From Nitrospira sp. (GTDB lineage Bacteria; Nitrospirota; Nitrospiria; Nitrospirales; Nitrospiraceae), in assembly GCA_015903945.1 (NCBI GenBank), contig JABMDL010000002.1:62001-126000 (forward strand): 64,000 nt of DNA. Direction: 5' to 3'. Shown in pieces: positions 8,189 to 49,497 of this stretch. Numbering within the stretch: position 1 is the stretch's first letter; every line of letters starts with the position of its first letter. Under the pieces are notes generated by a model. That model had not been told where the DNA came from. It saw only the letters and a program-made list of their open reading frames with translations, and searched no databases. Both the position numbers and the translations under genes were made by a program.

Positions 8189-9286
8189 ATGGTTCATCCG
8201 CGCCTGCTTGAATCCGCAATCCATGACAAGGGCCTACAGAAGCCGGTCCTTGGAATTGAGTCATCGTGCGATGAAACGGCCGCCGCCGTGGTAGCACCCG
8301 ACGGGTCGGTGCTCTCGAATGTGGTGGCGTCTCAAACGACGGTCCACGCGAAATTCGGCGGTGTCGTGCCGGAACTGGCGGCCAGGGCCCATATCAGTCA
8401 GATTGATGGTGTGATCATGGATGCGCTGAATCAGGCGCATCTTTCCATGCACGATCTTGGTGCGATTGCGGTCACCCAAGGGCCTGGATTGGCCGGTGCG
8501 CTGCTGGTTGGGGTAAATTATGCTAAGGCGTTGAGCTACGGATTGGGTATCCCCCTGGTCGGGGTGAACCACTTGGAGGGGCACATTGCGTCGGCCTGGC
8601 TGGCTGATCCGACCTTCCCGTTACCATGTGTCGTGCTCGTCGTGTCCGGGGGACATACGCATTTGTATAGGAGAGAACCGACCGGGGAATGTCTCTTACT
8701 TGGCTGCACCAGGGACGATGCCGCAGGAGAGGCGTTTGACAAAGGTGCGCAGATGCTGGGGCTGGAGTTTCCAGGAGGGCCGGCGATCGATCGACTTGCT
8801 CGGCTGGGCGATCCAAAGGCGATTCCGTTCCCACGCTTCCATCAAAGGAAAACCAGCCTGGAGTTCAGTTTCAGCGGGCTCAAGACATCATTGCTGTACA
8901 CACTGCGCAAGATGAACGATCACACGCGAGCAGATAAAATGGCCGATCTGGCTGCGGGCTATCAAGAGGCCATTGTGCAGGTGTTGGTGGCCAAGGCGTT
9001 TGCGGCCCTTGCCCATACGGGACTCTCCGCGCTGGCCGTGGTGGGAGGGGTATCGGCCAATTCTCGATTGCGGGCGCTGCTGACCGAACGAGGGGACCGG
9101 GAAGGTGTTCGGCTGGCATTGCCGCCATCAGCCTATTGCACGGATAATGCGGCCATGATCGCTTGGGCCGGCCGGCATCTGCTCATGACCGATCCGCAAA
9201 TCGGTCGGCCTGTCGACATCCAGCCGTCGCTCCAACCCGGTGTTGTTCGTCAATCGGGCCATAACAAGGAGCGCGCCCATTCCTGA
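8189..9286 (+). CDS. tsaD: tRNA N6-adenosine threonylcarbamoyltransferase TsaD
   Basis: VLGIESSCDETAAAVV, VPELAARAHISQI, VSGGHTHLY, VVGGVSANSRLR, CTDNAAMIAW; start moved downstream of the clpC terminator. Confidence 0.95.
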   Translation: MVHPRLLESAIHDKGLQKPVLGIESSCDETAAAVVAPDGSVLSNVVASQTTVHAKFGGVVPELAARAHISQIDGVIMDALNQAHLSMHDLGAIAVTQGPGLAGALLVGVNYAKALSYGLGIPLVGVNHLEGHIASAWLADPTFPLPCVVLVVSGGHTHLYRREPTGECLLLGCTRDDAAGEAFDKGAQMLGLEFPGGPAIDRLARLGDPKAIPFPRFHQRKTSLEFSFSGLKTSLLYTLRKMNDHTRADKMADLAAGYQEAIVQVLVAKAFAALAHTGLSALAVVGGVSANSRLRALLTERGDREGVRLALPPSAYCTDNAAMIAWAGRHLLMTDPQIGRPVDIQPSLQPGVVRQSGHNKERAHS

Positions 9287-36288: not shown

Positions 36289-38217
36289 CTACTTCTTGTC
36301 TTTGTCTACTTCTTCAAATTCTGCGTCCACGACTTTCTCGTCCGTTTTGGCGTTCGCGCTGTCCGCGCCATCGGTGCTGGGGCCTGCGGTGTTCTGCGGC
36401 CCGGCCGACGCCGAGGCTTTCTTATACATTTCCTCAGCCAGTTTGTGTGATGCCGTCATGAGGGTTTGCGTCGCCGACTCAATGGCTTCGGCATCCGGGC
36501 TTTCGAGCGCTTTCTTCAGCGCGGCCACGGCGTCCTGGATTTTTGTCTTCTCCTCCGCGGCCACCTTGTCACCGTATTCCGTGAGGTTCTTCTCGGTCTG
36601 ATAAATCAGATTGTCCGCTTGGTTCTTGGCTTCGGCCAGCTTGCGCCGCTTCTTGTCGTCTTCCGTATGCGCCTGCGCATCCTTGACCAGCTTTTCGACC
36701 TCGTCCTTGTTGAGCCCGCTCGACGCCGTGATTCGAATCGACTGTTCTTTCTGCGTCGCCAAGTCTTTGGCCGCCACATGGACGATGCCGTTGGCGTCGA
36801 TGTCGAAGGAGACGTCGATTTGCGGCATTCCACGCGGGGCCGTGGGAATGCCGACCAGGTCGAACTGCCCGAGCAGCTTATTGTCATTGGCCATTTCGCG
36901 CTCGCCTTGGAAGACCCGGATCGTCACGGCGGTCTGGTTATCGGCTGCGGTCGAGAAGACCTGACTCTTTTTGGTTGGAATCGTGGTGTTGCGCTCGATG
37001 AGCTTGGTGAAGACTCCCCCCAGCGTTTCAATGCCGAGCGAGAGGGGGGTCACGTCGAGCAGCAGCACATCCTTCACTTCGCCCTTGAGCACCCCGCCCT
37101 GGATGCCGGCGCCGATCGCCACCACTTCATCCGGATTCACCCCACGGTGCGGTTCTTTCCCGAAAAACTCCTTCACCACCTGAATGACTTTCGGCATGCG
37201 CGTCATTCCACCGACTAAGACGACTTCGTTGATGTCGCGCGGGGAGACCCCGGCATCCGCGAGGGCTTTCCGGCACGGCTCAACCGTTTTCTGGACCAAG
37301 TCGTCCACGAGCTGCTCCAATTTAGAGCGGGTCAGCTTGGTCACCAAGTGTTTGGGGCCGCTCGCATCGGCGGTGATGAAGGGGAGGTTGATTTCCGTTT
37401 CTTGCGACGAGGAGAGCTCGATCTTGGCCCGCTCCGCCGATTCTTTCAGGCGCTGGAGCGCCATCCGGTCTTTCCGGAGGTCGATACCCTGGTCTTTTCG
37501 AAACTCGTCGACGAGCCAATCCATCACCCGAAGGTCGAAGTCGTCTCCACCGAGATAGGTGTCGCCGTTGGTGGACTTCACCTCGAAAACACCTTCGCCG
37601 ATTTCGAGGATCGAGACATCGAAGGTCCCGCCGCCCAAGTCGTAGACGGCGATGCGCTCATCCTTCTTCTTGTCCAATCCGTAGGCGAGCGACGCCGCGG
37701 TCGGTTCGTTGATGATCCGCAACACGTTCAGACCGGCGATCTGGCCGGCATCCTTGGTGGCTTGCCGCTGGCTATCGTCGAAATAGGCGGGGACCGTCAC
37801 CACGGCCTCGGTGATTTTTTCGCCGAGGTAATCTTCCGCCGTCTGGCGCATTTTTTGGAGGATCATGGCCGAGACTTCCGGGGGACTGTACCGCTTGCCC
37901 CGCAGCTCGACATGGGCATCGCCGTTGTCGGCTTCGACCACTTTATAGGGCAGCCGTTTGATGGCCGCCTGCACTTCGGGGCTTTTGAACTTCCGCCCCA
38001 TGAGACGTTTGACCGAGAAAATGGTGTTTTCCGGATTGGTGATGGCCTGCCGCTTGGCGATTTGGCCGACGAGACGTTCGTTCTTATCAGTGATGGCCAC
38101 GACGGAAGGAGTGGTGCGGCTCCCTTCGGCATTGGCGATGACGACAGGGTCTCCACCGCTCATAATGGCGACGCAGGAATTTGTGGTGCCGAGGTCGATG
38201 CCGATGACTTTACCCAT
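36289..38217 (-). CDS. dnaK: Chaperone protein DnaK (Hsp70)
   Basis: [41 protein letters not shown]. Confidence 0.98.
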
Positions 38218-38266
38218 TGGTGGACTCCTTCCTTCTCAATATCAACGGTTCACTATAATGATCCGG

Positions 38267-38848
38267 TCAGTTCGGAGCTGCCTCGTGTTCGTTTGCGGTT
38301 GCAGGTCCGGATGAGACGCTGACCATGGCGGCGCGGAGCATTCTTTCATGCAGCCGATAGCCCTTTTGAAACTCCTCTACGACGTGATTGGAGGGCACGT
38401 TGTCGGATGGCACATGCGCGACGGCCTGATGCGTGGTTGGATCGAATACGTGGCCGATCGTCTCGACCGCCTGCACACCGAATTTGGCAAGGCTGCCGGA
38501 CAGTTGTTTCAGCGTCAGATCCACGCCCTGAACTAACGCGGAACCTGTCCCCTGCTCAGAATCGCGTGCGGCCTTGATCGCCCGTTCCAGATTGTCGATG
38601 ACAGGCAGCAATTCTCTCAGGAGCTGTTCGTTGCCGAACTTGATCTGATCCCGCTGATCGCGCTGAGCAAGCCGCTTATAGTTTTCGAACTCGGCCGCCT
38701 GCCTCAAGTATTTATCGTTCAGCGCGTTGCATTCGTCGGTCTTTGAACTCAGAGCTTTTTGTGCTTCCACAAGAAGGGGATCGGCCTCCGCGGTGTTCGA
38801 TGCCGATTCATCTGCACCGCCATTCTCTAACCCCTCAATTGTACTCAC
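38267..38848 (-). CDS. grpE: Nucleotide exchange factor GrpE
   Basis: KYLRQAAEFENYKRLAQRDQRDQIKFGNEQLLRELLPVIDNLERAI; Gly-Gln motif region HVFDPTTHQAVAHVPS. Confidence 0.93.
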   Translation of the reverse strand: MSTIEGLENGGADESASNTAEADPLLVEAQKALSSKTDECNALNDKYLRQAAEFENYKRLAQRDQRDQIKFGNEQLLRELLPVIDNLERAIKAARDSEQGTGSALVQGVDLTLKQLSGSLAKFGVQAVETIGHVFDPTTHQAVAHVPSDNVPSNHVVEEFQKGYRLHERMLRAAMVSVSSGPATANEHEAAPN

Positions 38849-38987
38849 TTTTACCTCGATGTTGTCCTGCTCTTGGTTGATGCGTGTGCCTATTCGTGCA
38901 AGCAGATATCCATAGCGGGAGAGAAGTCAACAGACGGGGAAAAGAAATGTCCTGAAAAAATGAGGGAGATGGCCCGATGTGGTGGTT

Positions 38988-39770
38988 TCAGGAGGGTGGC
39001 GTTGTGCCATGCGTGCGCCGGTAGAGGAACTCGAGTCCTTCCAGGGTCAATAATGGTTCAATCTTTTGAATCGAGGCGGTTTCCGGGGCGACGACAGCGG
39101 CGAGTCCTCCCGTGGCAATGACATAGGACGCATGTCCCATTTCCTGCTGCATACGTCGCACGAGGGCATCGACCAGGCCGGCGTATCCATACAGGAGCCC
39201 TGCTTGTATGCTGCTGGCCGTGTCGGTGCCGATGACGGTCTTGGGTCTCGCCAGTTCAACTTTGCTTAATTTGGCGGCGCGGGTGAACAGCGCTTCGGCT
39301 GAAATGCCAAGGCCCGGGGCAATGGCCCCGCCGAGGTAGTCTCCACCCTGGGTGACAGCACAGAAGGTCGTGGCGGTGCCGAAGTCCACAATAATGAGGT
39401 CACGGTGAAACTTGTGGTAGGCGGCGGCGGCATTGACAATACGGTCGCTGCCGATTTCCCCGGGATTCTTGTATCGAAGCGTCAGACCTGTGTCCATCTC
39501 CGAAGTAACGATGAGCGGTGTGCAGCCAAAATAAGAGCCGGCCATCGACTCGAACGTTTCCGTGAGGGACGGTACCACACTGGAAATAATCGCCCCGGTG
39601 ACCTGCTCAGGGGATCGGCCCGTCCGCGTGAGCAAATTCAGGCAGAGGACGCCGTATTCATCAACCGTCGCTTTTGGATTCGTGGCCAGCCGCCAATGGG
39701 CAAGGAGGGAGGAGCCCTCAAAAATGCCCCAGACGACGTTCGTATTGCCGATGTCGATCGCAACGAGCAT
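38988..39770 (-). CDS. coaX: Type III pantothenate kinase
   Basis: MLVAIDIGNTNVVWGIFEG, GSDRIVNAAAAYHKFHRDLIIVDFGTATTFCAVTQGGDYLGGAIAPGL. Confidence 0.95.
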   Translation of the reverse strand: MLVAIDIGNTNVVWGIFEGSSLLAHWRLATNPKATVDEYGVLCLNLLTRTGRSPEQVTGAIISSVVPSLTETFESMAGSYFGCTPLIVTSEMDTGLTLRYKNPGEIGSDRIVNAAAAYHKFHRDLIIVDFGTATTFCAVTQGGDYLGGAIAPGLGISAEALFTRAAKLSKVELARPKTVIGTDTASSIQAGLLYGYAGLVDALVRRMQQEMGHASYVIATGGLAAVVAPETASIQKIEPLLTLEGLEFLYRRTHGTTPPS

Positions 39771-39803
39771 GCTGCGTATTGTACCTGCTGGACGATGCAT
39801 CCG

Positions 39804-40643
39804 CTACTCCCGCAGATGAATGACATCTGCGGCGCGTATATCGAGGAGAGGAGGTATTCGTGTTTCGGAAGGGGGGCGAAAGGGCCGGACTTGTAGGGCT
39901 CCATCGAGTCCGATTGCCTCAGCTGTGCCCAGCAGTTCTTGGTCATCACCCAGAATAAGACGGACACGTTTGCCCAGAGTGCCGCAACGGGAAATATAGG
40001 CGTGGCGCAATCGATCAGGTCCGTGCGTCCGCAGCTTATCGAGGCCTTGCTCAAGTTCAAGTAACAGTTGAGTTAGCAGGTAAACTCTATTGACAAGTTG
40101 GTGAGAAATCGCATGGATTGATGTGGCTGTCTGACGCAAGTCTTCCGGAAATGATTCCTCCGTCATATTCACATTGAGGCCTATCCCGATCACGACGATC
40201 GGGGTGTCGGCTGAGATGTGCGTGCTCTCGCACAAAATGCCGCCCACTTTGCGTTCCTGGAATACGAGGTCGTTCGGCCACTTCAGAGATAACGGCACGG
40301 ACGCGGTCGTCTGAACAGCCTTTGCCGCTGCCAATGCACTGACGAGGGGCACCCACGAGAGCCATTCCGAAAGTGTAAGTGAAGGGCTGATGCCACGGAC
40401 CAGGGCGGAACAATAGATGTTGGCGCCGGGGGGGGAATACCAGTGACGTGCCCGGCGGCCTCGTCCGGCCGATTGTTGCTCGGCCACAACCACGGTTCCA
40501 TGTGCGGCGCCGGCCTGAGCCAGCCGCAGGGCTTCGGAATTGGTTGAGGCGAGTTCCTGATGCATGTGGATCTGTTGTCCGAACGCCTTTGTTGTCAGCG
40601 TGCTGCGAATGTCGTCGAGCGTGAGCGGAACGGTGGACAGCAT
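39804..40643 (-). CDS. birA: Biotin-[acetyl-CoA-carboxylase] ligase
   Basis: VVVAEQQSAGRGRRARHWYSPPGANIYCS, LKWPNDLVFQERKVGGILCES; no N-terminal HTH. Confidence 0.93.
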   Translation of the reverse strand: MLSTVPLTLDDIRSTLTTKAFGQQIHMHQELASTNSEALRLAQAGAAHGTVVVAEQQSAGRGRRARHWYSPPGANIYCSALVRGISPSLTLSEWLSWVPLVSALAAAKAVQTTASVPLSLKWPNDLVFQERKVGGILCESTHISADTPIVVIGIGLNVNMTEESFPEDLRQTATSIHAISHQLVNRVYLLTQLLLELEQGLDKLRTHGPDRLRHAYISRCGTLGKRVRLILGDDQELLGTAEAIGLDGALQVRPFRPPSETRIPPLLDIRAADVIHLRE

Positions 40644-40645
40644 GG

Positions 40646-41527
40646 TCAGGTGGACCGGCGTACAGGGCCTCGAACAGGAGATAAGACCAGACTCAGCGAC
40701 GCAGCCGGGGCCGAGTGAGTGAGCGCACCGATCGAAATACGATCGGCGCCGGCGATCGCCATGGCGCGAACGTTCTTCAAGGTAATGCCCCCCGACACTT
40801 CCACTGTGGCGCGGCCGTTGATCAGTTCGACTGAACGGCGCACCATGACCGGAGTCATATTGTCCAGCAGAATGATGTCGGCTTTTCCCGCGAGCGCCTG
40901 CCGGACTTCCGAAAGGGATTCGGCTTCAACGATGATGGGCATCGAGCCTGTTGCGTTCGCCTTTGCCAAGCGGCAGGCGGACCGGACGGCCTGTTTGCTA
41001 GGACGGAGAAGCGCCAGGTGGTTGTCTTTCACCAAGATGCCATCGCTGAGCGACATGCGATGATTGCTTCCGCCACCGAGGGCAACCGCCCATTTTTGAA
41101 GGGTGCGCCAGCCCGGCAGCGTTTTTCGCGTATCGAAAATGCTGGTCGTATGTCCTGAGACGGCTCGACAGAAACGGTTGGTCAATGTGGCGATACCGGA
41201 CAGATGCTGGAGGAAGTTCAACGCGACCCGTTCAGCCTGTAAGATCGATCGCCCGTCTCCGGCCACGTGCATGATCGGCTCGCCGTTCTTGGCCGGCTCA
41301 CCGTCATGCCGCAGGACGGTAACGGCGAGAGTGGGATCAACCATGAGAAAGGTCTGCACGGCTGCGGCCATTCCGGCCACGATCAACGGCTGTTGCGCGA
41401 CAATCGTGGCACGGGCCGGCACCGGTTTTGAGAAGAGCGCGGAGGTGGTGGCGTCGCCTTGGCCGAGGTCTTCTTCCAGTCCATGCCGGACCGCACGGCG
41501 AATCTCTGCGGCGGGGAGCCTGGCCAT
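40646..41527 (-). CDS. nadC: Nicotinate-nucleotide diphosphorylase (carboxylating)
   Basis: EDLGQGDATTSALF, LNFLQHLSGIATLTNRF, FDTRKTLPGWRTLQKWAVALGGGSNHRMSLSDGILVKDNH. Confidence 0.95.
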   Translation of the reverse strand: MARLPAAEIRRAVRHGLEEDLGQGDATTSALFSKPVPARATIVAQQPLIVAGMAAAVQTFLMVDPTLAVTVLRHDGEPAKNGEPIMHVAGDGRSILQAERVALNFLQHLSGIATLTNRFCRAVSGHTTSIFDTRKTLPGWRTLQKWAVALGGGSNHRMSLSDGILVKDNHLALLRPSKQAVRSACRLAKANATGSMPIIVEAESLSEVRQALAGKADIILLDNMTPVMVRRSVELINGRATVEVSGGITLKNVRAMAIAGADRISIGALTHSAPAASLSLVLSPVRGPVRRST

Positions 41528-41530
41528 CGG

Positions 41531-44272
41531 TCACGTTCCCAGCATGGCACGCAGCTGTGCTTCACTGCTGGCCAACAATGCGCGGTCACGAGACAAGGTG
41601 CGCACTCGCTCCTGATGTTCGGCGAGCACCTCCGGCGGCGCTTTCGATACGAACTCCGCATTCTTCAGTTTCCCGTCGAGCCGCTGCGCCTCCTTGTCGG
41701 TTTCCGCAAGTTGTTTGGCCAGACGGTCGAGCGCTTTCTTGAGATCGACGTCGCCGGACACCACGAGGCCTACCGACAGGCCTTCCGTGACGAGTCGAAG
41801 CAGTTTGTCTGCCGGCCACTCTTGTGCCGGTTTCACCTCGGCTGTGCCTCGGCTGAGATGAGCCAGATGCGGCTGTAACTGATGGAGCCGGTCTTGCCTA
41901 TCCGAGTCATCGTGTCCGACGTGAAGCGGGATTTGCTGTCCCGGCGAGTAGTTTAGGAGGACCCGGCCGGTGCGGGCGAGTCCGACCGCTTGTTCCAGGA
42001 GTGCAAACTGCTGCTCTGCCTCAGGTGATGTCCATGTCTGGTCGAGGGTCGGATACTGCTGCACAACGATGCTCTCGCCCTGATGGGGGATTGTCTGCCA
42101 AATTTCTTCTGTGATGAACGGCATGAACGGATGAAGCAGCCGCATCGTCGTCTCCAGGGTCTCGACCAGTGTGTGCCTCGTGCCTGCTCCGTCCGGATGG
42201 TCGGGCGTTTGGAGCACCGGTTTGATCAATTCCACATACCAATCACAGTACTCATGCCAGATGAATTGATAGAGGGCTGCGGCGGCACGATCGAACCGGT
42301 AAGACTCCAGCTCGGCAGTGACGGTGCGGATGGTATGGCCGAGGCGGCTCAAGATCCACTGATCAGGGAACGTCCGTCGTGCCGGCGGCAAGGGAGATCG
42401 CGGACCGTTGAGATACATCAGCGCAAACCGGGCGACGTTCCAAATCTTGTTCGCGAAATTGCGGTAGCCTTCGATTCGTTCTTCCGCCAGCTTGATGTCG
42501 CGCCCCGGCGAGGCCATCGAGGCCAGCGTAAACCGCAGGGCGTCGGTGCCGAATTGATTCATGACGTGCAACGGATTGATCACGTTGCCCTTGGACTTGC
42601 TCATCTTCTGCCCCTCGGCATCACGGACCAGCGCATGGATGTACACATCCTTAAACGGCACGTCGCCCATGAACTTCAAGCCCATCATGATCATCCGGGC
42701 GACCCAGAAAAATAGAATGTCCAGGCCCGTGACTAATGTGGAGGTCGGGTAATAGGTTTTCATCTCGGGCGTCTGATCCGGCCATCCCAAGGTTGAGAAC
42801 GGCCACAGGGCTGAAGAGAACCAGGTGTCGAGCACGTCGGGGTCGCGCAATAATTGCCCGCTGCCACAGACAGGACATTGGGCCGGATCCGACTTGGAGA
42901 CAATCGGCTTGGCACCTTGCAGGATCGCCGTCCGGTCAGCGGTGGTAACGATCTGACGGTCGTTGCAAGCTCGGCAGTACCAGGCCGGAATTTGATGCCC
43001 CCACCAAATTTGCCGGGAGATGCACCAGTCTTTGATCTCCCGCATCCATCCAAGATAGTTGTTCACCCAGCCTTCTGGAATGATGCGAATCCGCCCCTCC
43101 TCGACTGCTTTAATGGCAGGATCGGCGAGAGGCTGAATCTTGACGAACCACTGAGGTGACAGATAGGGTTCGACGACCGTCTTACATCGGTAGCACTTGC
43201 CGACCGCCATCTTGTGATCGTCGGTTTTTTCGAGGATTCCCCGTTCACGGAGGAGGGCTTCGACCTTGGGCCGCGCTTTGGAGACAGGGAGACCTCGAAG
43301 CATGTCGATCACCGATGTCTCGACCGCTCCCTTCTGCATCCCGGCCTGGTCAAGCAAGGCGGCATGATCGAGCACAGCAATTCGAGGCAGGTTGTGCCGT
43401 TCCCCCGCGTCGTAGTCGTTGAAGTCGTGCGCCGGCGTGATCTTGACTGCGCCGGTGCCGAATTCCAGATCGACGAGAATCGGATCGCCGACGATTGGAA
43501 TCTCCCGCGTGGTGAGCGGAAGGCGAACTCTCTTGCCGATTAGATGGCGGTACCGAGGGTCTTCAGGATGAACCGCCACGGCCGTATCTCCCAGCATCGT
43601 TTCCGGACGTGTGGTGGCAACGGTCAGTGCTGCATGTGGATCGTCGGCCAGCGGATACTTTAAATGGTAGAGCTTTCCCTTGATTTCCTCATGCTCCACT
43701 TCAATATCTGACAGGGCGGTGAGGCAACGGGGGCACCAGTTAATCAGCCGCTCGCCGCGATAGATCAAGCCGTCTTCATGCAGCCGTACGAAGACTTCGA
43801 GGACCGCTTTCGACAACCCCTCGTCCATGGTAAATCGCAACCGGTCCCAGTCGCAGGATTCTCCGAGCTGTTTCTGCTGGGCGATGATCGTATTGCCGGA
43901 TGTGGCTTTCCACTGCCACACCCGTTCGACGAAGCGCTCACGGCCCAGCGACTCGCGGGACATCCCTTCAGCCATGAGTTGCTTCTCAACTACGTTTTGC
44001 GTCGCGATGCCGGCATGGTCAGTGCCGGGAAGCCAGAGGGTGTTGTGGCCCTGCATGCGCCGCCATCGAATCAGAATGTCTTGCAACGAATGGTTGAGCG
44101 CGTGGCCAACGTGGAGTGAGCCGGTCACATTCGGCGGTGGGATGACGATGCAGTAGGGCTGGCCTGGATGGTCGACGGCGGCCCGGAAATAGCCACGGGC
44201 AATCCATTCTCGCGACCATCGGTCTTCGACGGATTTGGGTTCGTATGTCTTCTCCAATTGCGGCGTGCTCAT
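41531..44272 (-). CDS. valS: Valine-tRNA ligase
   Basis: PPPNVTGSLHVGHALNHSLQDILIRWRRMQGHNTLWLPGTDHAGIATQ; KMSKSKGNVINP; C-terminal coiled coil. Confidence 0.97.
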   Translation of the reverse strand: MSTPQLEKTYEPKSVEDRWSREWIARGYFRAAVDHPGQPYCIVIPPPNVTGSLHVGHALNHSLQDILIRWRRMQGHNTLWLPGTDHAGIATQNVVEKQLMAEGMSRESLGRERFVERVWQWKATSGNTIIAQQKQLGESCDWDRLRFTMDEGLSKAVLEVFVRLHEDGLIYRGERLINWCPRCLTALSDIEVEHEEIKGKLYHLKYPLADDPHAALTVATTRPETMLGDTAVAVHPEDPRYRHLIGKRVRLPLTTREIPIVGDPILVDLEFGTGAVKITPAHDFNDYDAGERHNLPRIAVLDHAALLDQAGMQKGAVETSVIDMLRGLPVSKARPKVEALLRERGILEKTDDHKMAVGKCYRCKTVVEPYLSPQWFVKIQPLADPAIKAVEEGRIRIIPEGWVNNYLGWMREIKDWCISRQIWWGHQIPAWYCRACNDRQIVTTADRTAILQGAKPIVSKSDPAQCPVCGSGQLLRDPDVLDTWFSSALWPFSTLGWPDQTPEMKTYYPTSTLVTGLDILFFWVARMIMMGLKFMGDVPFKDVYIHALVRDAEGQKMSKSKGNVINPLHVMNQFGTDALRFTLASMASPGRDIKLAEERIEGYRNFANKIWNVARFALMYLNGPRSPLPPARRTFPDQWILSRLGHTIRTVTAELESYRFDRAAAALYQFIWHEYCDWYVELIKPVLQTPDHPDGAGTRHTLVETLETTMRLLHPFMPFITEEIWQTIPHQGESIVVQQYPTLDQTWTSPEAEQQFALLEQAVGLARTGRVLLNYSPGQQIPLHVGHDDSDRQDRLHQLQPHLAHLSRGTAEVKPAQEWPADKLLRLVTEGLSVGLVVSGDVDLKKALDRLAKQLAETDKEAQRLDGKLKNAEFVSKAPPEVLAEHQERVRTLSRDRALLASSEAQLRAMLGT

Positions 44273-45824: not shown

Positions 45825-46559
45825 ATGGACATCGGCCATTCGATCAGAGTCGTGTTTTTCGACGCAGCCGATACGCTCTTTCATGTCAAGGGGTCCGTGG
45901 CCGAAATTTATCTCCGGCATGCGGTGGAATTCGGCTTCGCGCAGACGCCGGAGTCCCTCTCGGCCATCAAGCTGGCTTTTGGCCGGGCTTTTCGTGACGC
46001 TCCGCCACCGATATTTGCCGCGACGGAGCCGGTGCAGATCAAACACAGTGAGCGCCTCTGGTGGTTTGACGTCGTGCACAACGTGTTTTATCGAGTCGGA
46101 ATGTTCGAGCGGTTTGACGACTTTTTTGAGCGAGTGTTTCAGGTGTTTGAAGAACCGGGGGCCTGGCAGCTATTTCCTGAGACGGTACGGACACTGGCCG
46201 CGCTCAAGACGCAGGGAGTGGAACTGGGTATCATCTCAAACTTCGATTCACGACTCTTTTCCGTACTGCGCGGATTGGGACTCGCGGATGCATTCGACAC
46301 GGTCACGATCTCCAGTCTGGCGCAGGCTGCGAAGCCAGCTCCCAGGATCTTTCAATTAGCGCTGGACAAGCATGCCGTCGATCCGGAAGAGGCTCTGCAC
46401 ATCGGTGACAGTCTACGGGACGATGTCGAGGGGGCCCGCAAGGCCGGGTTGCACGCGGTGCTATTGGATCGTGGCGGCACGCAACAAACGGCAGCCGGCG
46501 TTCAAATCATCAGGAGCTTGGAAGAACTGGTTCCGCTCCTAGATCGGCTCGATCAGTAA
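45825..46559 (+). CDS. HAD-superfamily hydrolase
   Basis: VVFFDAADTLFHVKGSVAEIYL, GIISNFDSRL, KPAPRIFQLAL, LHIGDSLRDDVEGARKAGLHAVLLDR. Confidence 0.92.
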   Translation: MDIGHSIRVVFFDAADTLFHVKGSVAEIYLRHAVEFGFAQTPESLSAIKLAFGRAFRDAPPPIFAATEPVQIKHSERLWWFDVVHNVFYRVGMFERFDDFFERVFQVFEEPGAWQLFPETVRTLAALKTQGVELGIISNFDSRLFSVLRGLGLADAFDTVTISSLAQAAKPAPRIFQLALDKHAVDPEEALHIGDSLRDDVEGARKAGLHAVLLDRGGTQQTAAGVQIIRSLEELVPLLDRLDQ

Positions 46560-47273
46560 GGGGACAATCTCCTTCGCCCGTCCTCTGAGCGATAGATCCA
46601 CGAGATTAGTCTGCGGGGTCTCATCCAGATTGATTTCCACGACGAACGCGCCGGCCTCTTTTGCAATCGAGGCAAAACCCGCAGCCGGGTATACGACACC
46701 GGACGTGCCGATGATGAGGCACAGGTCGCACGAGCGAAGGGCTGTGTCGCTTCGCCGGAGGTCCTCTTCCGCGAGCGATTCACCGAACCAGACGATGTGG
46801 GGACGAAGCAGGCTATGACATGCTGTGCACCTCGGTAGGATCTGGATTGGAACGTCTCTGTTCTCCACGACCCGCTGGCATCTGGTGCAGCGGACCATCC
46901 AAATATTGCCGTGAATCTCGGACAGTTTGCGTGATCCCGCCGCCCGGTGCAGACCGTCCACATTTTGCGTGATCAGCCAGAATTGTGGATGGTGCCGTTC
47001 CATCTCGGCAACGGTCTCGTGGGCGGCGTTGGGCCGTTTTGTGGCGATCAACTCGCGGCGCCAGTTGTACCATTCCCAGACCAGCCGTGGGTCCTGTGCA
47101 AAGGCACCGGGTGTCGCCAGGTCTTCCGCACGAACATTCCGCCACAATCCATCTGTGCCGCGAAACGTTGGGACCCCACTGTCGGCCGAAATTCCGGCGC
47201 CGGTGAGCACGACGACGCTCTGTGCCGCGGCAAGCTTTTCTCTGACGAGGCCCAGATCCGAACCAGGTGCCAT
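46539..47273 (-). CDS. cobB: Sir2 family NAD-dependent deacylase (class III-like)
   Basis: VVLTGAGISADSGVPTFRG, WYNWRRELI, ITQNVDGLHRAAGSRKLSEIHG, CTRC..CTAC zinc ligands. Confidence 0.95.
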   Translation of the reverse strand: MAPGSDLGLVREKLAAAQSVVVLTGAGISADSGVPTFRGTDGLWRNVRAEDLATPGAFAQDPRLVWEWYNWRRELIATKRPNAAHETVAEMERHHPQFWLITQNVDGLHRAAGSRKLSEIHGNIWMVRCTRCQRVVENRDVPIQILPRCTACHSLLRPHIVWFGESLAEEDLRRSDTALRSCDLCLIIGTSGVVYPAAGFASIAKEAGAFVVEINLDETPQTNLVDLSLRGRAKEIVPLLIEPI

Positions 47274-47363: not shown

Positions 47364-48710
47364 ATGAAGAAGATCTTGATGATCGGCGCCGGATCGGTCG
47401 GCGGATTTTTCGGGGCGCGGTTGGTCAGGCAGAATCCCGACGTGTCGTTCTTGCTGCGGCCCAAGACGCTGGCGGCGGTGAAACAAAATGGATTGACGAT
47501 CCGCAGTGCCGACGGGACGTTTACGGTCAGACCGCAGGCCGCCTCGGAAGCACGGGAACTTCCCCGGCCTGACCTCATCGTTCTGGGAGTGAAAGCCTAT
47601 GACCTCGACGAAGTCCTGGACCAGATTGAGCCGGTGCTCACGGACAAGACGGTGATCCTCACGTTGCAGAACGGGATCGATACCGAAGATCGTCTGCTCG
47701 CGCGTCTTCAGCGGGACTGCGTCGTGGGCGGGGTCGCCTATATTTATTCCAAGATCGCCGAGCCTGGCGTGATCGACCACTATAAGAAAGGCGCCGTAGC
47801 CATTGGTGAATTGATGGGCCATGAGAGTACACGATTGTTGGCCATCCGTGATGTGTTCGCTGCGGCCGGCATTCCCTGCCACCTGTCCAAAGACATTCGC
47901 CGCAGTAAATGGGAGAAGATGTGCTGGAACTGTGTCTTCAACCCGATAACCGTGTTGATCGATGACCATGTGGCCAAGGCGCTGGATCATCCGGAGATGA
48001 CCGGTGTGATCCGGCAAATCGTCGGGGAAGTGGCGGCGGTCTCGGCCGCACTGAAGGTGCCGCTGCCACCGGATATGCCGGAACGGGTTGTCAAAGCCAC
48101 GCAGGAGATTCGTGACATTCACACATCCATGTATGACGATTGGAAGGCGGGACGGCGAACAGAAATCGACTATCTGAATGGTTTCATTGTCAGGATGGGG
48201 CGTGAGTTGGGCATTCCGACCCCGGTGAACGAAGCCCTGACGGCGATGATCAAGACGATTACTGAGAAGGAACACACCGGTCCAGGCTGGATACGGATCG
48301 AAGGGGCGGTAGTTCAACCGGTGTCATTCGACCGCACGGCCATTGCAGCCTTGCCGGCGGAGCACCATCTCGATGTGTCAACGGTCATGCCGGACATGAA
48401 GGGGCGGGGGATTCGGCTGAAAGGATTGCTCGATATTCCGGCCTTGGCGATCGATGCGGATCATGTCGCCTTTCATGCCGTGGATGGAAAGTATTCGGCC
48501 TGTCTCACGCTTCGGCAAGCCAGAGAGTACGGCGTACTCGTCTTTGAACTCGATGGAGCGCCATTGCCCGATGGGAAGGGTGGCCCGTTTCGCCTGATCA
48601 CACCCGGTCTGGGCGATCTCTGCGCCAACGTGAAGGGTGTAGGACGCATCGAGATCACCAAAGGACCAGGTCGGGACACCAGACAGACGGTCTGCCCACC
48701 GTCCCCTTGA
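47364..48710 (+). CDS. 2-dehydropantoate 2-reductase-like protein with ~135 aa C-terminal molybdopterin-oxidoreductase-like domain
   Basis: MKKILMIGAGSVGGFFGARLV, LQNGIDTEDRL, SKWEKMCWNCVFNPITVL; C-term MKGRGIRLKGLLDI..VAFHAVDGKYSACLTLRQAREYGVLVFELDGAPLPDGKGGPFRLITPG. Confidence 0.88.
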   Translation: MKKILMIGAGSVGGFFGARLVRQNPDVSFLLRPKTLAAVKQNGLTIRSADGTFTVRPQAASEARELPRPDLIVLGVKAYDLDEVLDQIEPVLTDKTVILTLQNGIDTEDRLLARLQRDCVVGGVAYIYSKIAEPGVIDHYKKGAVAIGELMGHESTRLLAIRDVFAAAGIPCHLSKDIRRSKWEKMCWNCVFNPITVLIDDHVAKALDHPEMTGVIRQIVGEVAAVSAALKVPLPPDMPERVVKATQEIRDIHTSMYDDWKAGRRTEIDYLNGFIVRMGRELGIPTPVNEALTAMIKTITEKEHTGPGWIRIEGAVVQPVSFDRTAIAALPAEHHLDVSTVMPDMKGRGIRLKGLLDIPALAIDADHVAFHAVDGKYSACLTLRQAREYGVLVFELDGAPLPDGKGGPFRLITPGLGDLCANVKGVGRIEITKGPGRDTRQTVCPPSP

Positions 48711-48711
48711 A

Positions 48712-49497
48712 TTGACCGAGAGGACACACGTCATGACCTCTGGGGTGGCTCGCGTTGTTGCTCTCGGTGCAAGTAATCTTACGCGCGGGTTTCAGACTGT
48801 CGTGGGGACCGCCCGATCATTCTGGGGGCCGGATGTCGAAGTCTTCGCGGCGCTCGGTCATGGGCGATCCTACGGGGCCTCCAGCCGGTTTATCGCGCGT
48901 ACCTTGCCCGGCATTCTCAAATCGGGGCTCTGGGCTGAATTAGAGCGTCGTCCTCACGTGGCCACTCGATGCCTGGTCACCGATGTCGGCAATGACATCT
49001 TGTATGGCTTCTCAGTGGAACGAACGCTTGGATGGGTCGAGGAGGTGCTCGAACGGTTGCGCCGTGTCACACGGGACATCGTGCTGACGGATCTTCCGCT
49101 TACGAGTGTCCGCCGGCTCTCGAACCTCAAGTTCTTGGCCTTTCGCACGGCATTGGTGCCGTCCTGCCGGTTGTCGTTGGCTCAAGTCATTCACAGAGCA
49201 GAAGGCGTCAACGAGGGTTTGGCCGTATTGGCCGAGACGTACGGTGCCAAACTGTTTCGGCTGGATCCGGACTGGTACGGGTTCGACCCGATCCACGTTC
49301 GTCCTTCGCAATGGCGGCCGGCCTGGCAGCAGATTCTTGGGGTTGAACCCCGGGAGGAGTTCAGTAAGGGCTCAACCATTGAGAGCGTGAAGCTCTATCT
49401 TCTGCGTCCTGAGCGCCGCTGGTTGTTCGGCAGAGAGCAGGTCACGCCGCAAGCCGGCGTGACACTCCGATCCGGCGGGCACATCTGGTTGTACTAG
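48712..49497 (+). CDS. SGNH/GDSL-hydrolase-like protein
   Basis: VVALGASNLTRGF, LGHGRSYGASSRF, LVTDVGNDILYGF, GFDPIHVRPSQW resemble SGNH blocks. Confidence 0.55.
   Translation: MTERTHVMTSGVARVVALGASNLTRGFQTVVGTARSFWGPDVEVFAALGHGRSYGASSRFIARTLPGILKSGLWAELERRPHVATRCLVTDVGNDILYGFSVERTLGWVEEVLERLRRVTRDIVLTDLPLTSVRRLSNLKFLAFRTALVPSCRLSLAQVIHRAEGVNEGLAVLAETYGAKLFRLDPDWYGFDPIHVRPSQWRPAWQQILGVEPREEFSKGSTIESVKLYLLRPERRWLFGREQVTPQAGVTLRSGGHIWLY

Follow-up and report, generated by a model that had tools for sequence, protein, structure and literature searches.

Pterin-binding proteins with the sulfite oxidase (SUOX) fold have so far been described from the periplasm, where they act together with c-di-GMP enzymes and with sensor kinases. 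One of them, PruR, is a SUOX-fold protein that lacks the molybdenum-ligating cysteine and binds reduced pterins, and residues 102 (Asn/Asp), Tyr104 and Trp160 have been noted in it (PMC13259868). The molybdenum-containing members of the same fold (YedY/MsrP, SorA, SoxC and sulfite oxidase) form a second point of comparison. A third is ketopantoate reductase (KPR, PanE/ApbA; TIGR00745; PDB 3hwr and 1ks9). The enzyme from Thermococcus kodakarensis is inhibited by CoA and is there a control point of CoA synthesis (PMC6650551). The Nitrospira protein described here shares features with each of these.

A ketopantoate reductase fused to a SUOX-fold domain

In the window, i.e. the whole stretch of 64,000 nucleotides from Nitrospira sp. 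that was analyzed, an open reading frame of 448 codons at 47364-48710 (+) joins a KPR and a SUOX-fold domain in frame. An earlier note on this DNA had described the same frame, and its coordinates and quoted peptides match ours. Its reading of the N-terminus as a complete PanE/ApbA-type reductase is borne out for residues 1-303 (47364..48272, +): with the whole protein as query, Pfam reports ApbA at 4-150 (E=1.2e-37) and ApbA_C at 177-299 (E=9.9e-36), and the TIGR00745 (apbA_panE) score of 270.6 bits is well above the cut-off of 141. A short linker follows (residues 304-309; 48273..48290, +) with weak column conservation and the lowest model confidence between the modules. The SUOX-fold domain without the Mo-ligating cysteine was delimited by profile, model and alignment to residues 310-433 (48291..48662, +). 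The match to Oxidored_molyb (PF00174) covers 348-434 (E=3.5e-12 and 46.7 bits with the whole protein, where the cut-off is 24; 2.4e-13 with the tail alone). The domain is longer than the stretch quoted in the earlier note and begins at about residue 310, where WIRIEGAVVQP forms the initial strand of the SUOX core. Behind it lies a conserved GPGxDTR peptide, here GPGRDTR (residues 434-440; 48663..48683, +). Compared with described PanE/ApbA enzymes, with which it shares both Pfam domains, the dinucleotide motif, the presumed catalytic residues and the panB/panC context, the window protein has an additional domain of 145 residues, and the KPR chains in the PDB match it only within residues 3-308.

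The AlphaFold2 model of the tail reaches a pLDDT of 87.3 and a pTM of 0.82; for the full-length protein the values are 90.6 and 0.73, and how its two domains are placed relative to each other is uncertain. Foldseek searches of the PDB with the tail model returned YedY (1xdy at 2.4e-8, and 1xdq), sulfite dehydrogenases/oxidases and SoxCD with a probability of 1.00, and likewise PruR of four species (7kos/7kom/7rkb/7kp2; probability 1.00, TM 0.62-0.68). A profile of the tail finds PruR 7kom at 1.4e-4, a wider family profile does so at 8.9e-9. The likeness to the sulfite oxidase fold that had been suspected is thus confirmed by structure prediction and by a Pfam match above cut-off; the accompanying idea that the tail corresponds to only the C-terminal part of a Moco domain has to be given up, because the domain represents a small SUOX core in its entirety. 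Judged from the sequences, this core is under purifying selection, with an approximate dN/dS of 0.05-0.09 in moderately divergent pairs in which dS is near saturation. The label "molybdopterin oxidoreductase", which many database entries for the tail can be expected to carry, is probably misleading.

Of the 42 alignment rows that contain KPR, 41-42 keep G8xGxxG13, R32, K77, N103, K185, N189, N193, S255 and E267 in the reductase half. We take N103, K185, N189, N193, S255, E267, R32 and K77, each present in all 42 rows, to be equivalent to N98, K176, N180, N184, S244, E256, R31 and K72 of the Escherichia coli enzyme and thus presumably to serve catalysis and NADPH binding. The closest PDB match of this half is 3hwr. 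Since the gene is the sole panE in a genome that also contains panB and panC, the KPR half is most likely a working PanE that serves pantothenate synthesis. The doubt on this point voiced in the earlier note finds no support, given the invariance of the presumed functional residues and the gene complement. IlvC is encoded in the same genome as well and could share the ketopantoate reduction step. Two fused proteins of family f2 (L122, L123) have about 40 additional residues inserted in their KPR half, at a point that falls between residues 149 and 157 of the window protein.

The gene resides in a syntenic block in the order valS, response-regulator-like gene, HAD, Sir2, KPR-tail, MATE, DUF2779-type gene. 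These labels stem from reading the translations, and those for HAD and Sir2 were confirmed. The HAD-family hydrolase (45825..46559, +) is a conserved neighbor that adjoins KPR in several relatives; the Sir2-family deacylase (46539..47273, -) is divergently oriented and conserved in the block. The HAD gene stays near KPR in fused and unfused lineages alike (the window and L120, L122, L123, L158 and L163), and the substrate of the hydrolase might lie in the pantoate pathway. Downstream of the fusion, a 261-residue open reading frame at 48712-49497 (+) has no strong start codon (either TTG or the ATG that follows seven codons later in the same frame) and no Pfam match, and it is conserved in only part of the genus. 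On the other strand, a cofactor cluster consisting of coaX, birA, nadC and valS follows dnaK/grpE at 36289-44272 (-), where all names except coaX were assigned by reading the translations. The gene for the type III pantothenate kinase CoaX (38988..39800, -) is located about 8 kb from the KPR-tail gene; a type I enzyme (coaA) was not found in the genome.

Distribution and history of the fusion

The intact fusion is present in about 100 Nitrospiraceae genomes and also in sister families. It was found in 80 further, independent Nitrospira loci and, beyond the genus, in most of its relatives and in additional families of the same order. In a sample of 396 genomes covering the phylum, the tail profile matches 202, and strong full-frame fusions occur in the family and order of the window. 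The survey of architectures in the Nitrospirota that had been proposed earlier thus reveals a fusion conserved throughout this family and order. This recurrence rules out an assembly join, a frame artefact or chance: the fusion arrangement is real and old. We did not find viral copies. Plasmid matches to the tail were, as far as inspected, ordinary SUOX-like proteins, PruR having come from a separate query. Among the listed matches out of 570 plasmid records for the full protein, only the KPR part was covered, and a single one of the 570, outside the matches listed, has a reported coverage of at least 80%.

In a KPR tree, the fused KPRs all group together in a single, fully supported clade, to which the KPRs of families f7 and f10 are sister. 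The f7 and f10 genomes examined contain both KPR and tail as separate genes; in two cases (L158, L163) a HAD-KPR pair is found at a distance of 2-3 kb from the tail gene, while in most free-standing cases the tail and KPR genes are not adjacent. Co-occurrence and proximity in the sister families together with the single clade of fused KPRs point to a functional link between the two proteins. In the tail tree, the KPR-free tails L113 and L114 are nested within the fused clade. The simplest history would begin with separate genes that fused once, at the base of the order, after which one half or the other was lost on separate occasions; that the fusion arose a single time is indicated by the sister lineages, in which both proteins are encoded separately. 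After the fusion, there was one loss of the SUOX domain, and there were at least two of the KPR half. The former case is L116 (G041), in which a KPR without SUOX domain still ends with GPGQDTKP, so that the C-terminal peptide was retained despite the deletion of the domain. The latter is illustrated by L113 (G049), where a tail without KPR is found in the usual position next to Sir2 and a Cyclase-family gene (PF04199) takes the place of KPR. G049, G043 and G205 all contain a tail and no KPR above cut-off, yet panB, panC, ilvC and coaX are present. It follows that the tail has some value by itself and that, with KPR existing without the tail in G041, the two halves do not strictly depend on each other. 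In Nitrospira MAG RSF5 (L024/G305; same contig as L169) a TAA is situated exactly at the KPR/tail junction (about base 8907) in front of an otherwise intact tail frame; either a genuine stop codon or a base error would explain it.

The free tail homologues of the sister families (L158-L166) are SUOX-fold proteins that likewise lack the Mo cysteine; they comprise about 170-200 residues without evident signal peptide and carry a long His-rich C-terminus (HDHDHGHSH) suggestive of metal binding. Their genetic contexts vary and include DsrE-like genes, DnaJ/HTH and AAA ATPase genes. At L160:7155-8112 and L161:2485-3424, the DsrE-like genes and the free tail gene are divergently oriented neighbors, which hints at a link to sulfur transfer.

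The pocket of the SUOX-fold domain

We aligned the tail with four plasmid-borne PruR homologues and SUOX proteins; one of the plasmid-borne PruR homologues has N102, Y104 and W160 at exactly these numbers. All positions discussed here are on the forward strand. T340 (48381..48383) aligns with the Mo-ligating cysteine of SUOX enzymes and with a tryptophan of PruR. It varies between T, A, E, Q, V and R, and a cysteine is found there in none of about 100 aligned copies. The absence of the ligand noticed earlier therefore holds for the whole family, and a standard molybdenum enzyme with the usual cysteine is ruled out. D374-G-K-Y377 (48483..48494) aligns with PruR Asn102-Asp-Tyr104, with D in 98% and Y/F in 100% of the sequences, and the tail thus has equivalents of the reported pterin-binding pair Asn/Asp102 and Tyr/Phe104. 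G406-G-P-F-R410 (48579..48593) is invariant in 43 rows and in the free homologues; its arginine is that of SUOX proteins (HGxPxR) and is lost in PruR. N422-V-K424 (48627..48635) aligns with the SUOX VK(W) motif. C420 (48621..48623) is present in all fused and free copies examined and absent at this position from the genome's own SUOX-family enzyme. The counterparts of R410 and K424 in SUOX enzymes are presumably molybdopterin contacts. With the PruR pair D374/Y377 and the SUOX-like R410/K424 kept and C420 added, the residues suggest a pocket for a small, perhaps phosphorylated pterin without a standard Mo center.

The tail resembles PruR in fold, in size, in the absent Mo cysteine and in the equivalents of 102 and Tyr104. 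It differs from PruR in being cytoplasmic (no signal peptide) and fused to an enzyme, in keeping the SUOX-like R and K, and in its additional invariant cysteine. Nor does tryptophan replace the Mo cysteine as it does in PruR, T340 being found in its place, and the pocket cannot be the same because W160 of PruR is the invariant K424 here. A secretion signal of the PruR type and a DcpA or sensor-kinase partner were not seen at the locus, where the neighbors are HAD, Sir2, MATE and valS; with W160 and the secreted partner system missing, the tail is ruled out as a straightforward member of PruR. SUOX molybdoenzymes share the fold and the GGPxRL...P and VK motifs with the tail, which in contrast lacks the Mo-ligating cysteine, is truncated and has no dimerization domain.

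Possible roles of the SUOX-fold domain

The reading that we tentatively prefer, although we put it at somewhat less than an even chance, is that the tail is a non-catalytic, PruR-like module that binds a pterin or pterin phosphate and regulates or scaffolds KPR. The KPR half would be a catalytically intact NADPH-dependent ketopantoate reductase, while the SUOX-fold module would no longer bind molybdenum in the usual way. Its ligand would instead come from the folate or molybdopterin pathway, as a reduced pterin or a phosphate of one, bound in much the same way as by PruR, and the module would act on the reductase as a regulatory or scaffolding domain. The ketopantoate reduced by KPR is made by PanB from methylene-tetrahydrofolate, and a pterin pocket on KPR is plausible for this reason. 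We infer both the class of ligand and its effect on KPR activity; a pterin is pointed to by the precedent of PruR and by the pocket residues. By this analogy, the non-catalytic binding role considered in the earlier note would fit, PruR being a Cys-less SUOX-fold pterin binder (PMC13259868). Doubtful in its full breadth is the further-reaching proposal that a pterin-receptor SUOX-fold domain controls an enzyme of vitamin B5/CoA synthesis and couples CoA supply to the folate/Moco pool, C420 marking a separate non-molybdenum class.

The main rival assumes that the tail is an autonomous binding or carrier protein for pterin, molybdopterin or Moco that works independently of KPR and is fused to it for stoichiometry or location. 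The free, signal-peptide-less homologues with His-rich C-termini in the sister families agree with such a role, and so do the tails of G049 and G043 that persist after loss of KPR with all motif residues intact. In G205, moreover, the free tail gene is part of a same-strand run (L166:6097-10628, -) together with MoaC, two ABC genes, a MoaD-MoaE fusion and a histidine phosphatase, which indicates the molybdopterin branch and a possible link to Moco. An independent carrier does not, however, account well for the conservation of the fusion across a whole order, for the retention of both genes in the f7 and f10 genomes examined or for the differing contexts of the free copies, and we consider it unlikely, if worth keeping in view.

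Improbable in our judgment is a catalytic tail in a bifunctional enzyme, with C420 as a relocated Mo ligand or redox-active thiol. Neither fused nor free copies vary at this residue, which sits in the loop before VK, beside the SUOX cofactor-binding motif, and a short SUOX protein from haloarchaea has a cysteine near the same position. Set against this are the loss of the usual Mo ligand and the absence from the domain of what we take to be the N-terminal part of a YedY-type cofactor site.

Alternatively, the tail might sense CoA or phosphopantetheine and mediate feedback at KPR, the step at which CoA inhibits the T. kodakarensis pathway (PMC6650551). This is attractive because the Nitrospira genome has coaX without coaA, because 8 kb separate coaX from the fusion gene in the window and because CoA regulation has a precedent in an archaeal KPR; R410 and K424 could bind phosphate. 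G205, however, combines CoaX and the tail without KPR. CoaX-only genomes without the tail domain are common, and we know of no CoA-binding protein with the SUOX fold, so that feedback sensing seems quite improbable. Least credible is a mere structural or oligomerization add-on with a decayed pocket: G041 has kept KPR without the tail, but nowhere is the tail better conserved than on the side of the pocket, and the residues there are still found in copies that have no KPR, as one would not expect of a decayed site.

Novelty and implications

In the open-licence literature, no paper was found that combines ketopantoate reductase with Nitrospira. The pairs KPR and sulfite oxidase, Oxidored_molyb and ApbA, and 2-dehydropantoate 2-reductase and Nitrospira gave co-mentions on topics that are unrelated by title. 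Both parts of the protein belong to known families; new are their combination, its conservation throughout an order and the C420 class, none of which was found in that literature. "Unreported" is meant in this sense, since domain databases probably list the architecture already.

If the preferred reading of the tail as a pterin-binding module acting on KPR is true, the sensing of pterins would, through a cytoplasmic SUOX module that is part of an enzyme of central biosynthesis, reach into the control of metabolism. The protein also offers a testable lead on how CoA synthesis may be controlled in bacteria that possess only a type III pantothenate kinase.
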